IMG/VR virus record: IMGVR_UViG_3300021438_000067
Location: 1-25,016 of that record
DNA from: a virus
DNA length: 25,016 nucleotides
Direction: 5' to 3' (one strand)
Part shown: positions 1,825-25,016 of the stretch, in pieces
How the letters are laid out: every line of letters starts with the position of its first letter
How positions within the stretch are numbered: the stretch's first letter is position 1
Made by a program: the position numbers and the translations under genes
The notes under the pieces: generated by a model
Databases searched by the model: none
What the model was told of the DNA's origin: nothing
What the model saw: only the letters and a program-made list of their open reading frames with translations

Positions 1825-2493
1825 ATGGCTTGGTCAGGCGGTTCCGTTTCCTTTACTTGGAATGGAAGTTCATATAACGTAAGCTATTCAGCCCCGTCAT
1901 ATAGCATGTCGGGTGGCTATGTTGTTTATGGTCCTTATGTGACTTCTGCTGGACCGTCTACTGTTGCTGCGAATGGTTCTGTTTCGCAAGGGTATGCGGT
2001 AGATGTTCATATCACTGACCCGCCATCGAATACTACTTATACGACTTCAATTTCGGGTACTGCACCGTCTGCACCGCCACCTCCACCGACTTATCCGCCT
2101 AGCTGGTCTGATAATACGCTTGGTGGTTTTCAGGCTGATGTTGCTTATTCGGATGGTGTTTCTGCCACTAACATGAATTACTCTGGCAGTTATTCTGTCA
2201 GCTCTGGTTCATTGCCTTCTGGCATTTCATTGAATAGTTCTTCCGGTGCGGTCACTGGTACCCCTACTACTGCAGGTCAGTCCTACAGTTTTACCATTAC
2301 TGCTGGTAACTCGTATGGGTCTACGTCTCAGGCGTTTTCTGGTACGGTTGCCGCATCTCCTACCGCTGGCAAGTTGCGTGTATGGACTGGCACTACATGG
2401 GTTGTTGCTCCGGCTAAGGTTTGGGACGGCTCTACTTGGGTTTCTGGGTCTGTGAAGGTCTGGAATGGTACTACGTGGGTGACAAGTGTCTGA
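1825..2493 (+). CDS. Ig-like (He_PIG) structural protein with W-G-T-W C-terminal repeats
   Basis: A 222-residue Ser/Gly/Tyr/Thr-rich protein. Residues 1-80 are a beta-rich domain. A proline linker follows at about 85-95 (APSAPPPPPTYPPSW). Residues about 125-178 match the putative-Ig (He_PIG) pattern: LPSGISLNSSSGAVTGTPTT, then AGQSYSFTITAGNSYGSTS. The last 40 residues hold three near-copies of a short motif: RVWTGTTWV, KVWDGSTWV and KVWNGTTWV, seen in many actinophage tail and adhesion proteins. The composition fits a surface-exposed, carbohydrate- or host-contacting virion protein. The last 8 bases overlap the next gene's GTG start. Confidence 0.65.
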   Translation: MAWSGGSVSFTWNGSSYNVSYSAPSYSMSGGYVVYGPYVTSAGPSTVAANGSVSQGYAVDVHITDPPSNTTYTTSISGTAPSAPPPPPTYPPSWSDNTLGGFQADVAYSDGVSATNMNYSGSYSVSSGSLPSGISLNSSSGAVTGTPTTAGQSYSFTITAGNSYGSTSQAFSGTVAASPTAGKLRVWTGTTWVVAPAKVWDGSTWVSGSVKVWNGTTWVTSV

Positions 2494-2737
2494 GCCTGAG
2501 ATTATGCACGTGAAGGTCACTATCAATGACTTGTATAAGGAACAGCAGGAAACTAATAAGCTGCTGATTCAGTTGGCTGCTGATTTGCGTAACATGTCTG
2601 ATTTGCCTGACCGTATGCGTGCGGTTGAGAAGTATCAGGATGAGAATTCTTGGGTGGCTAAAGTTGTGTGGGCTGCCCTTTCGAGTGGTATTATTGGTTT
2701 TGGGACGGCACTTTATACACTGATAGCTAAGGGCTAA
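2486..2737 (+). CDS. XhlA-like small membrane protein (holin or holin partner)
   Basis: An 83-residue protein if started at GTG 2486, which overlaps the previous stop by 8 bases; an in-frame ATG at 2504 would give 77 residues beginning MHVKVTINDLYKEQQ, and neither has a strong ribosome site. Residues about 8-55 are a polar amphipathic helix (ETNKLLIQLAADLRNM, DRMRAVEKY). Residues about 57-80 are a single hydrophobic segment (VAKVVWAALSSGIIGFGTAL) with a short basic tail. This coiled coil plus C-terminal TM layout is that of XhlA/haemolysin-type phage membrane proteins. It directly precedes the M23 peptidase gene, so a lysis role is likely. Confidence 0.6.
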   Translation: MSEPEIMHVKVTINDLYKEQQETNKLLIQLAADLRNMSDLPDRMRAVEKYQDENSWVAKVVWAALSSGIIGFGTALYTLIAKG

Positions 2738-2739
2738 TT

Positions 2740-3285
2740 ATGACTAAGTATGTTTACCCGTTTCCTAAGAAGGATATTCCTAAGGGTGGCGAGTTCGGTA
2801 ACACCGTTCTCTTTGATGGCACTAAGCGTGCTAATGCTCACCGTGGCGTTGATGGTCCTCCAGAGTTTGCGATTGCTGTTACTGATGCAACTGTTGTTAT
2901 GAACAAGTGGTCAACTGTTTTGGGTAACGTTTTGGTTATTCAGGATGAGAAGGGTACTTTTTGGGGTTATTCGCACTTGCGTAATGCTCCTGCGTTGGCT
3001 CTTGGTCGGAAGGTTGTTGCTGGTGAAAAACTTGGTGTTGTTGGTAACACGGGCACTGCGTCGCATGGTCGGCACTTGCACTTCACCTGTTCTAACGTTC
3101 TTGAGGGCATTTTTGCTGGTAAGGTCTTTGACCCGTTCGAGATTTTGGATAAGCGTATGGCTGTTGAGGCAGCTAAGTCTAAGAAGGTGGCAGCAGTTGC
3201 TGAGCCTGCCGTTGTCGACGCAGCACCTGTTGTTGAGGGTTCTGCTGAAGAGAAGGCGCTAGCTGCACGGAAGGCTAATCGCTAA
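2740..3285 (+). CDS. M23 (LytM) peptidoglycan endopeptidase, probable endolysin
   Basis: A 181-residue zinc metallopeptidase that should cut cell-wall peptide cross-links. The M23 motifs are all present: H34-x-x-x-D38 (AHRGVD), H79 in GYSHL, and H112-x-H114 in ASHGRHLHF, preceded by the usual G-x-T-G loop (VVGNTGTASHG). The catalytic domain covers about residues 15-135. The last 45 residues are an Ala/Lys/Val-rich tail with no clear domain. No signal peptide is seen, so export would need a holin; membrane-protein genes lie on both sides. It could be a virion-associated wall-degrading enzyme instead, but the location favours an endolysin. Confidence 0.8.
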   Translation: MTKYVYPFPKKDIPKGGEFGNTVLFDGTKRANAHRGVDGPPEFAIAVTDATVVMNKWSTVLGNVLVIQDEKGTFWGYSHLRNAPALALGRKVVAGEKLGVVGNTGTASHGRHLHFTCSNVLEGIFAGKVFDPFEILDKRMAVEAAKSKKVAAVAEPAVVDAAPVVEGSAEEKALAARKANR

Positions 3286-3560
3286 TGTGGAAGCCTTCTA
3301 AGAAACTTGTAAAGCGCACTACTCGTATTTTGGCATTTACTGCTGCTGCGGGTCTGAGCTTTATGGGAGCCGGAAACGTGATGGGGTTCTCTGCGTTGCA
3401 GTCTGCGCTTTTTGGTGCTGCTGGTTCGCTTATGGGTCTCACTGTTGGGCTACTATTTAATTATGCACTTGACGGTTTTCTTGATGATGCCGAATTTGAT
3501 GCAAACATGAAGCAGGCTGTCGAAACTGTTCAGTCTAAGACTAAGAAATCTAAGGAATAA
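3285..3560 (+). CDS. Two-TM membrane protein, holin candidate
   Basis: A 91-residue protein starting in a TAATG junction with the peptidase gene. The N-terminus is basic (MWKPSKKLVKRTTR). Two hydrophobic segments follow, about residues 15-35 (ILAFTAAAGLSFMGAGNVMG) and 38-64 (LQSALFGAAGSLMGLTVGLL), then a charged C-terminus rich in Asp, Glu and Lys. Small size, two spans, a basic N-terminus, a charged tail and the position straight after an endolysin fit a holin. There is no sequence signature that proves it; it could be another small membrane protein. Confidence 0.55.
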   Translation: MWKPSKKLVKRTTRILAFTAAAGLSFMGAGNVMGFSALQSALFGAAGSLMGLTVGLLFNYALDGFLDDAEFDANMKQAVETVQSKTKKSKE

Positions 3561-20750: not shown

Positions 20751-21074
20751 TCAGTTATACGTATCGAAGATGGCAGAGAGGTTTCTTTCGGCTTCTTCAA
20801 GCTCTAATTCTTCGCCAGTCTTATAAAGTCCAGTATAACCAGTTTCTTCTGGATAGGCAGGTGCAACAGTTACTGCCTGTACTTGCTGGAATGCTAGTGG
20901 GTCTTTACTTGCTAGCAGGTTTGATAGGTGGATTAGCACTTCTTTTTGCATTGTTGATGCTTGTAGAAGGTTGTGAGACTGGTAGTTCAGGCTCTTTGTC
21001 ATCCTCTGGACGAGGTACACTGTCGCCGTAAGAAATAGCAAAGATAAAATCAGTAACGCTGCTGCGAATTCCAT
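20751..21074 (-). CDS. 107-residue single-TM protein overlapping its neighbour
   Basis: Begins at ATG 21074 with GAGGA about 8 bases upstream, inside the 146-aa gene, and overlaps that gene by 170 bases in another frame. Residues 3-23 are a membrane span (FAAALLILSLLFLTATVYLV). Then comes a helix (YQSHNLLQASTMQKEVLIHL, NLLASKDPLAFQQVQAV) and an acidic tail (EELELEEAERNLSAIFD). N-terminal anchoring with a cytoplasmic or periplasmic helix could fit a spanin, an accessory membrane protein or a packaging-linked protein; I cannot tell which. Confidence 0.65.
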   Translation of the reverse strand: MEFAAALLILSLLFLTATVYLVQRMTKSLNYQSHNLLQASTMQKEVLIHLSNLLASKDPLAFQQVQAVTVAPAYPEETGYTGLYKTGEELELEEAERNLSAIFDTYN

Positions 21075-21345
21075 TGATAAGTTCCTCTACGTGGTCTGGC
21101 ACTCTTGCGAGTTCTCTTTCGTGTGCTTCGACGTCCATCTTAAGGGTGTCGATTTCTTCTTCTAGTGGGATTGGGTTAGCCCAACCAATAAATTCTGATA
21201 GTTCCTTGATGCAAGTTATGCAAATTTGCGCTTCGCCACCTGATAGTAGCTCTCGGGTTAGCCCATAAATGTTTTTGTTTGCACCACAGGATACGCATGA
21301 CGAGGGAAATGGTCCGCCATTTTCGTAATAGTTAAAGTGTCTCAT
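20905..21345 (-). CDS. 146-residue four-Cys (zinc-finger-like) protein
   Basis: Starts three bases after the terminase stop. Two CxxC pairs, C17-V-S-C20 and C42-I-T-C45, lie 22 residues apart with a compact domain (PFPSSCVSCGANKNIYGLTR, AQICITCIKELSEFIGW), a typical zinc-ribbon spacing. Residues about 60-90 form an acidic helix. The last 55 residues (SVPRPEDDKEPELPVSQPST onward) are polar and look disordered; they are read from DNA that also encodes the membrane protein at 20751-21074. The role is unknown; DNA or protein binding near packaging is a guess. Confidence 0.65.
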   Translation of the reverse strand: MRHFNYYENGGPFPSSCVSCGANKNIYGLTRELLSGGEAQICITCIKELSEFIGWANPIPLEEEIDTLKMDVEAHERELARVPDHVEELINGIRSSVTDFIFAISYGDSVPRPEDDKEPELPVSQPSTSINNAKRSANPPIKPASK

Positions 21346-21348
21346 TCT

Positions 21349-22884
21349 TTATCCTTCTAGTTCACTAATTGATGACGTTGTGCGCCATTCTTGACCCCAA
21401 GGGTCAGGCTCATCATACTCTGTAAATTTGCTTGTTGCACCAAACTGCTCCCTAAATGCTGAGTGGAACGCTTGGCTTTGGTTCTCTGAAGAGTATTCTG
21501 CAGGGGTCAAGTCTGGCATGAAAGTCATTGCATATTTCAATGCGTCATAGCAGTGGTTGTCCTTGTCGCGGATTTCCTCTAGCTTGTTTTTCATCTCAGC
21601 AATCTTTGGAGATGCGTGCTTTTTCCATTTTAGTTTAGGGATTTCTGCAATTAGTTCTGGGCAGTCATCCGTGAACATAAGGTATGGCTTGTTTGTTTTT
21701 GGGTTGACTTTCATGTACTGCTGGATGCGCTCCAGACCAATACGTCGGTCGTTAGGAATCTGGTCTACTGCAATGTAGATGCCATGCTTCGCGTACTCTT
21801 GCTGGATTGAGGTTCCGGTATGCTCTTTTGTTTGTTTGATTGCCGGGTCCCCGGTAGTAAGGTAAAGTTCCGCACCTGACTCTCGTAGAATTTTCTTCGT
21901 CCGAGCATTAACTTCTTTGGAGTGGTAGTCAACATTCTCTCTCGCTTTGTGGTACTCGCTGAAGACGATAATAGTTCCATCTTTGTCAACTGCCATCCAC
22001 AACCAGACGGTGGGGTTGGTGTATCCGCTATCCATTGTTCGAATAATTCGATGCTTGCCAGTGGGTTTGAACTGTCCTTTAGGAATACAGTGTGTGAGAG
22101 GACTGAATTCTGGAAAGACTGCACCGCCAAGATGGACGTACTGTCCGTTACGTCGAATGAGTTGCTCTTCTGGGGTGAGCGACTCCATGTAGCGTGCGAT
22201 AGCTTCTCTAGAGAGTGTTGGGTTATCGTCCATAGTTGCTTCAACGATGCCAATGTCTTTGGTTCCTTCTTGTGCTGGGATGTATACGTCTTCGAGAATC
22301 CACTCCATGCCTTGGACTGGGGTTTGCGACATCCACCAGTCGCCGTCGGTGTCGATGAGTCGGGCTAAACATTCTTGCCACACAGTTTTTGGGCACTCTT
22401 CGTCAAAGTGGATGAAGTGGCGGGATGAACCTGCGAACTTATCTAGGTCTTGGTCTTGCGACATGAACTCTACGAATGAGCCGTTGTTGAGTGTTAGTAC
22501 GTGGCGTTCGCGAGAGTATGAATCTTCCCATGAACCATTGATTAGGTACTTCTTTGGTAGCCACTGCTTCCAGAGTGGGAGGATAATTTTGTCTACACCG
22601 TTTAGGAAGTCAACTGCGACCACTCGTCCACGGATTGGCTCATCAGGCATCTTACGAAACGGGTGGGTTTTAGTAACCCAGTAGATTCCTTCAATGGTTG
22701 AGCCTAGCGATTTGCCTGAACGGTTACCGCCAATGTATAGGCGTGCTTTTTGTGGCAGGGCATGAAATGCTTCCTGTTTTGGCGAGGCTTTGTAGTTGTA
22801 AAGATTTGGTAGCGCAGCAGATTCTTGGATTGATTCGCCAAGCCCACGCAGGGCATCTTCTAGGTTGAAGTTATCTCTCGCCAC
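21349..22884 (-). CDS. terL: Terminase large subunit
   Basis: A 511-residue packaging motor. The ATPase has Walker A GGNRSGKS (52-59), and Walker B with catalytic acid HFDEE (159-163). The C-terminal RNase H-like nuclease carries likely metal-binding acids D285 (IRTMDSGYTNP), D346 (LYLTTGDPAIKQ) and D447 (NHCYDALKY). It would pump DNA through the portal and cut concatemers. It starts at GTG 22884 and overlaps the nuclease gene's end by 14 bases; the ribosome site (GGA) is weak, so translation may be coupled. Full length, no damage seen. Confidence 0.93.
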   Translation of the reverse strand: MARDNFNLEDALRGLGESIQESAALPNLYNYKASPKQEAFHALPQKARLYIGGNRSGKSLGSTIEGIYWVTKTHPFRKMPDEPIRGRVVAVDFLNGVDKIILPLWKQWLPKKYLINGSWEDSYSRERHVLTLNNGSFVEFMSQDQDLDKFAGSSRHFIHFDEECPKTVWQECLARLIDTDGDWWMSQTPVQGMEWILEDVYIPAQEGTKDIGIVEATMDDNPTLSREAIARYMESLTPEEQLIRRNGQYVHLGGAVFPEFSPLTHCIPKGQFKPTGKHRIIRTMDSGYTNPTVWLWMAVDKDGTIIVFSEYHKARENVDYHSKEVNARTKKILRESGAELYLTTGDPAIKQTKEHTGTSIQQEYAKHGIYIAVDQIPNDRRIGLERIQQYMKVNPKTNKPYLMFTDDCPELIAEIPKLKWKKHASPKIAEMKNKLEEIRDKDNHCYDALKYAMTFMPDLTPAEYSSENQSQAFHSAFREQFGATSKFTEYDEPDPWGQEWRTTSSISELEG

Positions 22885-23311
22885 GGATTAGTCCAACCAG
22901 TTCTTGTAGACGTATACGCACAAGGGTAGCGTCAGTACTAGGGAGGTGATTGCGAAGTTCAAATAGGTCTCCGAGTTTTGCATAAGCCCACCATTCACCA
23001 GCCCGTGGAGCACCCACACCAGCACGCTGAGTGACGAGGAAACCAAAGCGACCATTTGCATTGGCTTTTTCAGTTTCGGCTTCTTGGAACCATTTTTCGA
23101 TTTGCCCATATGAAGCCTCCTTAGCAGCCTTGCCACCTTTGATTTCGAAGACGATTAGTCCGCGTAGTGGTTCGCGTAGCCAAACATCACCTTCGTCATT
23201 TGTTCCTTTTAGAACGTTGCGGTGTGCTTCTAGTTCGCTGTATCCCTGTGCAAGTAGGTGCTTGCGTACAGCGGTTTCGGCAGCCGTGCCGATTTGCTTT
23301 GCTTTACTCAT
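22871..23311 (-). CDS. PD-(D/E)XK nuclease, Holliday-junction resolvase-like
   Basis: A 146-residue protein from ATG 23311, chosen because GGAGGAG (23318-23324) is six bases upstream; an open frame further upstream overlaps the opposite gene. The motif residues are E12 (IGTAAETAVRKHLLAQGYSE), D42 in NDEGDVWL and E56-x-K58 in VFEIKGGKAA, the PD-(D/E)XK arrangement found in phage resolvases and related endonucleases. Residues about 90-110 (GRFGFLVTQRAGVGAPRAGE) continue the fold. Placed before the terminase large subunit, it probably trims branched DNA before packaging. A full 222-base membrane-protein gene is embedded in it. Confidence 0.72.
   Translation of the reverse strand: MSKAKQIGTAAETAVRKHLLAQGYSELEAHRNVLKGTNDEGDVWLREPLRGLIVFEIKGGKAAKEASYGQIEKWFQEAETEKANANGRFGFLVTQRAGVGAPRAGEWWAYAKLGDLFELRNHLPSTDATLVRIRLQELVGLIRGER
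22888..23109 (-). CDS. Embedded two-TM protein, holin candidate
   Basis: A 73-residue gene lying wholly inside the PD-(D/E)XK nuclease gene in another frame. Its ATG (23107-23109) follows a near-perfect ribosome site, AAGGAGG, at a spacing of about 6 bases. The N-terminus is strongly basic (MGKSKNGSKKPKLKKPMQ), then two hydrophobic segments, about 19-38 (VALVSSSLSVLVWVLHGLV) and 50-68 (NFAITSLVLTLPLCVYVY), joined by a polar loop, ending KNWLD. This is a class II holin layout. It ends 4 bases before the terminase start. The combination of a strong ribosome site and TM topology makes chance unlikely, though not excluded. Confidence 0.6.
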   Translation of the reverse strand: MGKSKNGSKKPKLKKPMQMVALVSSSLSVLVWVLHGLVNGGLMQNSETYLNFAITSLVLTLPLCVYVYKNWLD

Positions 23312-23600: not shown

Positions 23601-25016
23601 TGACTGTTCGTTTGCAACTACGCGGTGGTACTGCTGCTGCTTGGACTGCAGCTAACCCTGTTCTTGCTGACCGTGAGTTTGCTGTTGAGACTGACACTAT
23701 GAAAGTCAAGATTGGCAACGGCACGTCGAACTGGGTTTCTCTTGCGTATATGACGCAGGGTACTGCAGGTTTGTCGGCTTACCAGATTGCTTTGGCTAAC
23801 GGTTATGTTGGTACGCAGGCTCAGTGGCTGGCTTCTTTGCAGGGTATTCAAGGTATTCAGGGTATTCAGGGCATTCAAGGTATTACTGGTTTGCCTGCTG
23901 ATTTTATTGCAGTGTATCCGGATGCCGCTACTTTGCTTGCTGAGTATCCTACGCCTGCTAGTTCTGCCGTATGGGCTTTGGTTAAGGACCCTGCAGATGA
24001 GACAAAACTTTACTTGTATTCGAAGGCTAATGGTACGAACGCTTGGGGTTCTTCTGTAATTGATTTGCCTCGCGGCATTCAGGGCATTCAAGGCATTCAG
24101 GGCATCCAAGGTATTCAGGGCGTCAAGGGCGATAAGGGTGACAAGGGCGATACTGGTCTTCAGGGTATTCAGGGTGTTCAGGGTGAAACTGGTCTAACTG
24201 GTGCTACTGGTGCTACTGGTGCTCAGGGTCCTATTGGTTTGACTGGTGCTACTGGTGCTACTGGTGCAACTGGTGCTAAGGGTGATAAGGGTGACCAAGG
24301 TATTCAGGGCATTCAGGGTGCTACTGGTCCTCAGGGTATTCAGGGTGAGATTGGTCCTCAGGGTATTCAGGGTATTCAGGGCGAGGTGGGTCCTCAGGGT
24401 GCTAAGGGCGACAAGGGCGACCAAGGTATCCAAGGCATCCAAGGTATCAAGGGTGACAAGGGTGACACTGGTGATACTGGTGCTACTGGACCTCAGGGTC
24501 CACAGGGTATTCAAGGCATTCAGGGAGACCAAGGTATTCAGGGTCCAACTGGTGCGTTTGGTGGTGCAGTTTTTAAGTACAACTATCTAACTGATACGGC
24601 AGACTCTAACCCAGGGTCAGGAAACCTGAAACTAAATAACACTATTCATGGCGCTACCGAACTTTATATTAGCTACTTTGACTTTGATGGCGTTGACGCA
24701 TCTGCTTACCTTGAAACTATTGATGATTCTACGTCAACTATCAAGGGTCACTTCCGCATTGAAGAAGTGGGCAATCCAAATAACTTTGCTTATTATGCAA
24801 TCAATGGGTACCACTATTCACATGATACCTATTTTGAAGTTCCTATTGTTTGGCTTTCAGGTTCTGTAACTACGTGGGCAAATGGTGTGGATGTAGACAT
24901 CACATTTGTGCGCACTGGTGATAAGGGTGATGCTGGGCTTGGCGGAGCGCAGGGTAGCTGGGGTTCATTCTGGGATACCACTACTCAGACTGCAGCAGCG
25001 ACTGATACGCCTTATG
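23600..25016 (+). CDS. Collagen-like tail fibre, cut by the right edge
   Basis: At least 472 residues, still open at the window end. Residues about 3-50 (RLQLRGGTAAAWTAANPVLA, then AVETDTMKVKIGNGTSNWVS) match the N-terminal virion-anchor domain shared with Mtd-type fibres. Residues about 56-78 (SAYQIALANGYVGTQAQWLA) are a usual fibre link. A short Gly-Ile-Gln run (79-98) follows, then a 60-residue globular insert (96-157), then a long Gly-x-y collagen-like rod (about 158-319) of GIQ, GPQ, GDK and GAT triplets, then a beta-rich domain (about 325-435) that may be a host-binding head, and GSWGSFWDTTTQTAATDTPY at the edge. It should form a trimeric host-recognition fibre. Confidence 0.8.
   Translation, partial: MTVRLQLRGGTAAAWTAANPVLADREFAVETDTMKVKIGNGTSNWVSLAYMTQGTAGLSAYQIALANGYVGTQAQWLASLQGIQGIQGIQGIQGITGLPADFIAVYPDAATLLAEYPTPASSAVWALVKDPADETKLYLYSKANGTNAWGSSVIDLPRGIQGIQGIQGIQGIQGVKGDKGDKGDTGLQGIQGVQGETGLTGATGATGAQGPIGLTGATGATGATGAKGDKGDQGIQGIQGATGPQGIQGEIGPQGIQGIQGEVGPQGAKGDKGDQGIQGIQGIKGDKGDTGDTGATGPQGPQGIQGIQGDQGIQGPTGAFGGAVFKYNYLTDTADSNPGSGNLKLNNTIHGATELYISYFDFDGVDASAYLETIDDSTSTIKGHFRIEEVGNPNNFAYYAINGYHYSHDTYFEVPIVWLSGSVTTWANGVDVDITFVRTGDKGDAGLGGAQGSWGSFWDTTTQTAAATDTPY
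23837..24560 (+). repeat. Collagen-triplet DNA repeats (GGTATTCAG-type 9-mers)
   Basis: Two blocks (about 23837-23893 and 24072-24560) of 9-base Gly-x-y triplets, mostly GGTATTCAG / GGCATTCAA variants for Gly-Ile-Gln, with GATAAGGGT and GCTACTGGT types between. The synonymous mix of third bases shows the array is old or under codon diversification, though runs of four identical units suggest slippage or gene conversion. Confidence 0.85.

Follow-up and report, generated by a model that had tools for sequence, protein, structure and literature searches.

The minus strand of a single viral record, 25,016 bases long and analysed whole (the window), carries an open reading frame of 73 codons that lies entirely within a nuclease gene and is read in its +1 frame (22888-23109). 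This arrangement raises the question of whether a second gene, coding for a small membrane protein, has been written over an enzyme gene. In double-stranded DNA tailed phages, overprinting is rarely proven, and annotation pipelines drop genes of this kind. The initial annotation, made from the letters of the window, proposed a functional gene at this place, and that proposal is strongly supported by conservation in the window's clade, by comparison with a null model, by hydropathy and by the distribution of T at third codon positions. The inner frame is thus very probably a genuine overprinted gene wholly inside the nuclease gene, as judged from patterns of sequence evolution. Its start, Shine-Dalgarno (SD) site, openness and hydrophobicity are kept in the clade beyond what a synonymous null predicts.

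The nuclease gene and the frame within it

The outer gene (22871-23311, minus strand) encodes 146 amino acids, and its reading as a PD-(D/E)XK nuclease is borne out by a match to PHROG 244 (E = 1.6e-15) and by a confident AlphaFold2 (AF2) model (pLDDT 90.4), the top Foldseek matches of which are the archaeal proteins Hjc (Holliday-junction resolvase) and Hje (probability 1.00). The Hjc structures 1gef, 2wcw and 1ob8 are matched by this model, and the residues of the catalytic E..D..ExK pattern (E12, D42, E56 and K58) are invariant in A3. The assignment to the Hjc-type PD-(D/E)XK nucleases is therefore supported by the predicted fold, while a role in packaging is suggested only by the position of the gene. 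PHROG 244 itself is labelled RusA-like, a name that seems mistaken for these nucleases given the Hjc-like fold predicted here.

The gene for the terminase large subunit (TerL; 21349-22884, minus strand; PF03237 in Pfam, E = 1e-5) belongs to the same operon-like run, and its GTG start falls inside the 3' end of the nuclease gene. The window's terminase is 46% identical to that of the Arthrobacter phage Brad, and since both terminase and portal are nearest to those of phages of Arthrobacter, Cellulosimicrobium and Microbacterium, the host is likely to be actinobacterial. No Rfam families or tRNA genes were found in the window.

The inner frame is present as first described, one base out of the nuclease frame and with AAGGAGG 6 nt before its ATG. 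The SD site (23116-23122, minus strand, as are all inner features) is provided by the outer codons AAG GAG G.., and the start codon (23107-23109) by an outer tyrosine codon, TAT, and the G that follows it. Two predicted membrane segments occupy about residues 18-38 (TM1, 22996-23058) and about residues 48-70 (TM2, 22900-22968). The frame closes with TAA (22888-22890), 3 nt ahead of the terminase GTG at 22884, so that it ends just before the terminase gene, as had been noted, and the last eight inner codons contain an inner-frame stop in 64 of 65 relatives. Inspection of the nuclease sequence revealed no in-frame nuclease start so placed that it would account for the SD site, and within roughly 7,500 codons of genes in the window the inner frame is the sole embedded case in which a strong SD site (-10.2 kcal/mol) is combined with two hydrophobic segments.

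Conservation of the start and of the open frame

Relatives were gathered by scans of IMG/VR, which yielded 59 and then 75 loci, and were reduced to 65 distinct nuclease genes (55-100% identity) that were codon-aligned and put on a tree. The window's clade comprises 19 of these genes (L001, L003-L011, L013-L019, L092 and L118). As a null, the nuclease proteins at the tips, the tree and the terminase codon usage were held fixed and synonymous codons alone were allowed to evolve, in 3000 runs, at a rate tuned to the synonymous divergence measured upstream of the overlap. The contrast with this null grows when codon usage is taken from the upstream half of the nuclease gene instead.

Within the clade, the outer codons at the site read AAG GAG GCN TCN TAT GGN with few exceptions. 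The third base of the serine codon in the spacer is free and occurs as all four letters, while the SD codons and the start are kept; this is in phages that otherwise use TAC for 71-80% of their tyrosines and GAA for 58-79% of their glutamates. The persistence of ATG and AAGGAGG in related nuclease genes, which had been suggested as a check, is indeed observed: a start codon stands at the site in 18 of 19 genes (null mean 5.8) and AAGGAGG in 17 of 19 (null mean 4.7), and start, SD site and open frame occur jointly in 17, a count with a null mean of 0.14 that none of the 3000 simulations reached. The exceptions are two: L014 keeps the start behind AAGGAAG, and L019 has lost both elements. In L118, an outer change from tyrosine (TAT) to phenylalanine (TTT) turns the inner ATG into TTG, still a start, behind an unchanged AAGGAGG. 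Across all 65 genes, the frame is open in 17 of the 17 that have both SD site and start and in 8 of the remaining 48, counts that carry no phylogenetic correction.

The frame itself is open for at least 66 codons in 18 of the 19 clade members, where the null gives a mean of 1.8 and a maximum of 11 in 3000 runs, and a single inner-frame stop was observed against 40 expected.

Hydrophobicity and third-position T

Both segments are far more hydrophobic in the clade than the null predicts, with a hydropathy of 2.26 against 0.21 in the first (mean z = 3.6) and 1.92 against 0.53 in the second (mean z = 2.8). The excess persists against a null that is forced to be free of stops (mean z 3.4 for TM1 and 2.4 for TM2), and the same comparison finds none in the upstream part of the nuclease gene. 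The frequency of T at third positions of the nuclease codons (T3) rises solely over the two segments, where it is about twice the expected value (0.59 against 0.26 in TM1, 0.54 against 0.28 in TM2); it falls back in the intervening loop (0.31 against 0.20) and is normal in TerL. Outer third positions are second positions of inner codons, and selection would thus pick T in the nuclease gene in a way that keeps the inner protein hydrophobic.

The initial annotation had also expected synonymous change to be suppressed over 22888-23109 while the hydrophobic pattern persists. The pattern does persist, but the suppression is absent, as synonymous divergence in the overlap (0.470) is close to that upstream (0.498). 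Such suppression usually, though not necessarily, marks an overlapping gene. The inner protein of L001 is only 64% identical to that of L003, against 97% for the nuclease. Because divergence in the overlap is not lowered and inner residues drift, selection appears to act on start, openness and hydrophobicity and not on the inner residues themselves; the constraint, read from the alignments, sits on the SD site, the start codon, the avoidance of stops and T at third positions. The test proposed at the outset would accordingly have missed the inner gene. For finding overprinted membrane proteins, low synonymous divergence serves poorly: the feature conserved in them is T at the outer third position.

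Relocation and loss in other lineages

The 46 genes outside the clade were intended as a negative control, but the signal is present there too. An SD-led +1 frame of at least 48 codons is found in 17 of them, against 0.64 expected, and 11 of these 17 have two membrane segments, against none in 250 simulations; frame +2 of the same 46 genes holds no SD-led frames of this kind. This test, in which the start is flexible, was chosen after the data on other lineages had been seen and is for that reason weaker than the test at the fixed site. The starts in these lineages have been relocated, with ATG at outer Asn-Ala codons behind AAGGAGA or CGGAGA, and with GTG behind AAGGAGG in L054 and L058. Some lineages keep a single hydrophobic segment, either TM2 (L138, L144, L145, L155 and L156) or TM1 (L034-L039), and in others both segments are lost or the gene is broken (L117-L120, L146, L158, L021 and L042). 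Such loss or breakage in several distant lineages indicates that the inner gene is dispensable to the wider family. Related phages that retain the nuclease with stops in the inner frame had been named in advance as what would speak against a gene; stops are found in this way in some distant lineages but not in the close clade, and several distant lineages keep the same hydrophobic frame with another start. Together, the roughly 65 relatives, with their relocated starts and their losses, form a natural series for studying the origin and maintenance of a membrane protein within the gene of an enzyme.

Beyond this family, distant Hjc-like homologues from Bifidobacterium and Propionibacterium phages and from bacterial genomes are without an inner membrane frame. 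The cultured relatives identified by terminase and portal (Arthrobacter phage Jasmine, Microbacterium phage Shocker and Cellulosimicrobium phage DS1) cannot test the inner frame, because the genes read ahead of their terminases do not include this nuclease. A search for free-standing homologues of the inner protein gave matches only at loci with the same nuclease gene, and nothing meaningful in isolates.

Alternative readings of the inner frame

The proximity of the inner stop to the terminase start, retained in nearly all relatives, together with the lack of an obvious SD site ahead of that start, would be consistent with an inner frame that is translated only to bring ribosomes to the terminase, its product being functionless. 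Such translational coupling has no need of hydrophobicity, yet both segments exceed the stop-free null; the nuclease frame already crosses the terminase start and could itself provide coupling, and relatives whose inner frame is broken further upstream still have the stop near TerL. On balance, this reading is improbable, although it is the least improbable of those considered here. It is harder still to regard the frame as a by-product whose openness and hydrophobicity, common in +1 frames, would stem from codon composition and chance. The lysine-rich N-terminus and the Gly-Gly of the inner protein are indeed dictated by conserved outer residues, and hydrophobic +1 frames are also seen elsewhere among the window's genes. 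However, the observed values were never reached in simulations in which nuclease protein, tree and codon usage were fixed, the bias is seen neither in the upstream part of the nuclease gene nor over most of TerL, and the distant Hjc-like homologues of other phages and bacteria lack such a frame, so that chance is a very unlikely source of it.

Two further readings deny the site its role as an ordinary coding start. Packaging signals often lie near the terminase gene, which the site adjoins, and AAGGAGG and ATG might be conserved as a DNA or RNA signal, such as a promoter, a packaging site or a processing site. The spacer serine codon takes all four bases at its third position, the ATG has become TTG in L118, the avoidance of stops and the hydrophobic bias extend over 200 nt, and no Rfam family is matched, all of which leaves such a signal with a slimmer chance than the by-product. 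Alternatively, since SD-like elements can stimulate frameshifting and the membrane frame is the +1 frame, ribosomes might slip at the site from the nuclease into that frame and make a nuclease-membrane fusion. Against such programmed frameshifting, a start codon is conserved at the spacing proper to an SD site, and in several lineages stops separate the SD site from the membrane frame, with other SD-start pairs located downstream in use there; this is the least likely reading of all.

A predicted membrane protein with a candidate role in lysis

If the inner frame is an overprinted gene, ribosomes would start independently at AAGGAGG and ATG within the mRNA of the nuclease, and their product would be a small membrane protein, which is predicted to have a lysine-rich cytoplasmic N-terminus, two membrane helices and a short outside loop with a conserved Gly-Gly. 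AF2 places helices at residues 14-39 and 46-72 with modest confidence (pLDDT 69, pTM 0.32). In the long-form proteins, the N-terminus carries a charge of +4 to +7 and the loop one of 0 to -2, which suggests a topology with both ends inside, as in two-TM holins. Class II (two-TM) holins such as S21 are about 70 residues long, with a charged N-terminus and a two-helix hairpin, and by hydropathy and AF2 the inner protein shares this anatomy (short, two segments, charged ends, a predicted hairpin). The description of the gene as holin-like holds in so far as the N-terminus is positive and a two-helix hairpin is predicted. On the other side, no holin family was matched in Pfam or PHROG by the 30 members searched, and a separate lysis cassette exists; nor is the inner gene beside the endolysin, a position that is common but not required for class II holins. 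A search of BFVD with the model gave no fold match (best E = 2.1).

The presumed endolysin, an M23 peptidase (2740-3285, plus strand; PF01551, E = 9.6e-14), is flanked by two membrane proteins. Its upstream neighbor (2486-2737, plus strand) has 83 residues and a C-terminal membrane segment, and a homologue in L173 gives a weak match to a holin family (PHROG 1296, E = 0.095). Its downstream neighbor (3285-3560, plus strand), a holin candidate of 91 residues with hydrophobic stretches, has homologues in 6 of 31 records (E < 1e-17) and no family match in Pfam or PHROG. That the inner gene is far from the endolysin, which sits on the other strand, had been recognized from the start; the distance is about 20 kb, and it counts against a role in lysis. 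The inner gene is unlikely to be the sole holin, because the endolysin and its 91-residue neighbor are also present in L019, where the long start is lost, and in L026 and L059, which have a short form.

The likeliest function is nonetheless that of a late-expressed holin or an antiholin-type accessory that would tune lysis alongside the endolysin cassette, an assignment that remains tentative at somewhat below even chances; superinfection exclusion and depolarization are examples of alternative membrane roles. Slightly more speculative is the wider proposal of a lysis-timing gene born by overprinting in a resolvase-type nuclease of tailed phages and kept throughout the family, whose start would move (long lysine-rich, short and GTG forms) and whose inner sequence would drift, under selection only on start, openness and hydrophobicity.

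In the genome of L003, an 82-residue protein with a hydrophobic stretch is encoded downstream of the endolysin (L173, 1988-2236) and matches PHROG 26427, a family labelled nuclease (E = 4e-11); this looks like a mislabelled family.

Relation to known overprinted genes

By analogy, the closest known kind would be the lysis genes that some phages carry as overprinted frames, phiX174 E among them. In the phiX174 D/E pair, T at outer third positions becomes T at inner second positions and gives rise to a hydrophobic segment (PMC8227390). The E protein resembles the inner protein in that it is a small membrane protein, its coding frame is shifted and lies entirely within another gene (D), and the same T device is used. 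The host gene here is that of an Hjc-fold nuclease in a double-stranded DNA tailed phage, whereas in phiX174 it is a scaffold gene in a single-stranded DNA phage; there are two membrane segments here and one there, the start sites here move between lineages, the lysis role is a candidate only, and no sequence relation was found.

The Rz/Rz1 spanins provide a case of a small gene embedded out of frame, with its own start, in double-stranded DNA phages. Rz1, however, is a lipoprotein of the outer membrane and is encoded within another lysis gene, whereas the host gene here is a nuclease gene and the inner protein has no lipoprotein signal. Microbacterium phage Shocker, a relative of the window by terminase and portal, encodes a membrane protein of similar size near its terminase (gp15, 71 residues), but from a stand-alone gene that follows a peptidase gene and has no embedded frame, and no Hjc-like nuclease is among the genes read upstream of the Shocker terminase. 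A description of an embedded membrane or holin gene in a resolvase-type nuclease was not found in the literature searched, which does not imply its absence elsewhere.

Neighboring regions of the window

The terminase gene shows a peculiarity of its own. Over about codons 241-315 (21940-22164, minus strand), synonymous divergence in the clade is only 0.18-0.23, whereas most of the gene shows about 0.5; between two sublineages it is as low as 0.02-0.08 over codons 241-300. In other lineages it is about 0.6. The +1 frame of the terminase is stop-free over codons 211-300, and a second overprinted gene was considered on the grounds of these missing stops. It is not claimed, because no start or SD site is conserved there and the region is hyperconserved at the nucleotide level. 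The low divergence could be due to recombination, to a DNA or RNA signal or to another overlap.

Further downstream, the minus-strand open reading frames 20751-21074 and 20905-21345 overlap out of frame by 170 bases and have no PHROG match to a known function; the downstream one encodes 107 residues with a clear N-terminal membrane segment and is preceded by an SD-like site. On both strands of 23787-24590, the coding is repetitive, with many overlapping low-complexity open reading frames, as would come from a gene with collagen-like Gly-x-y repeats.
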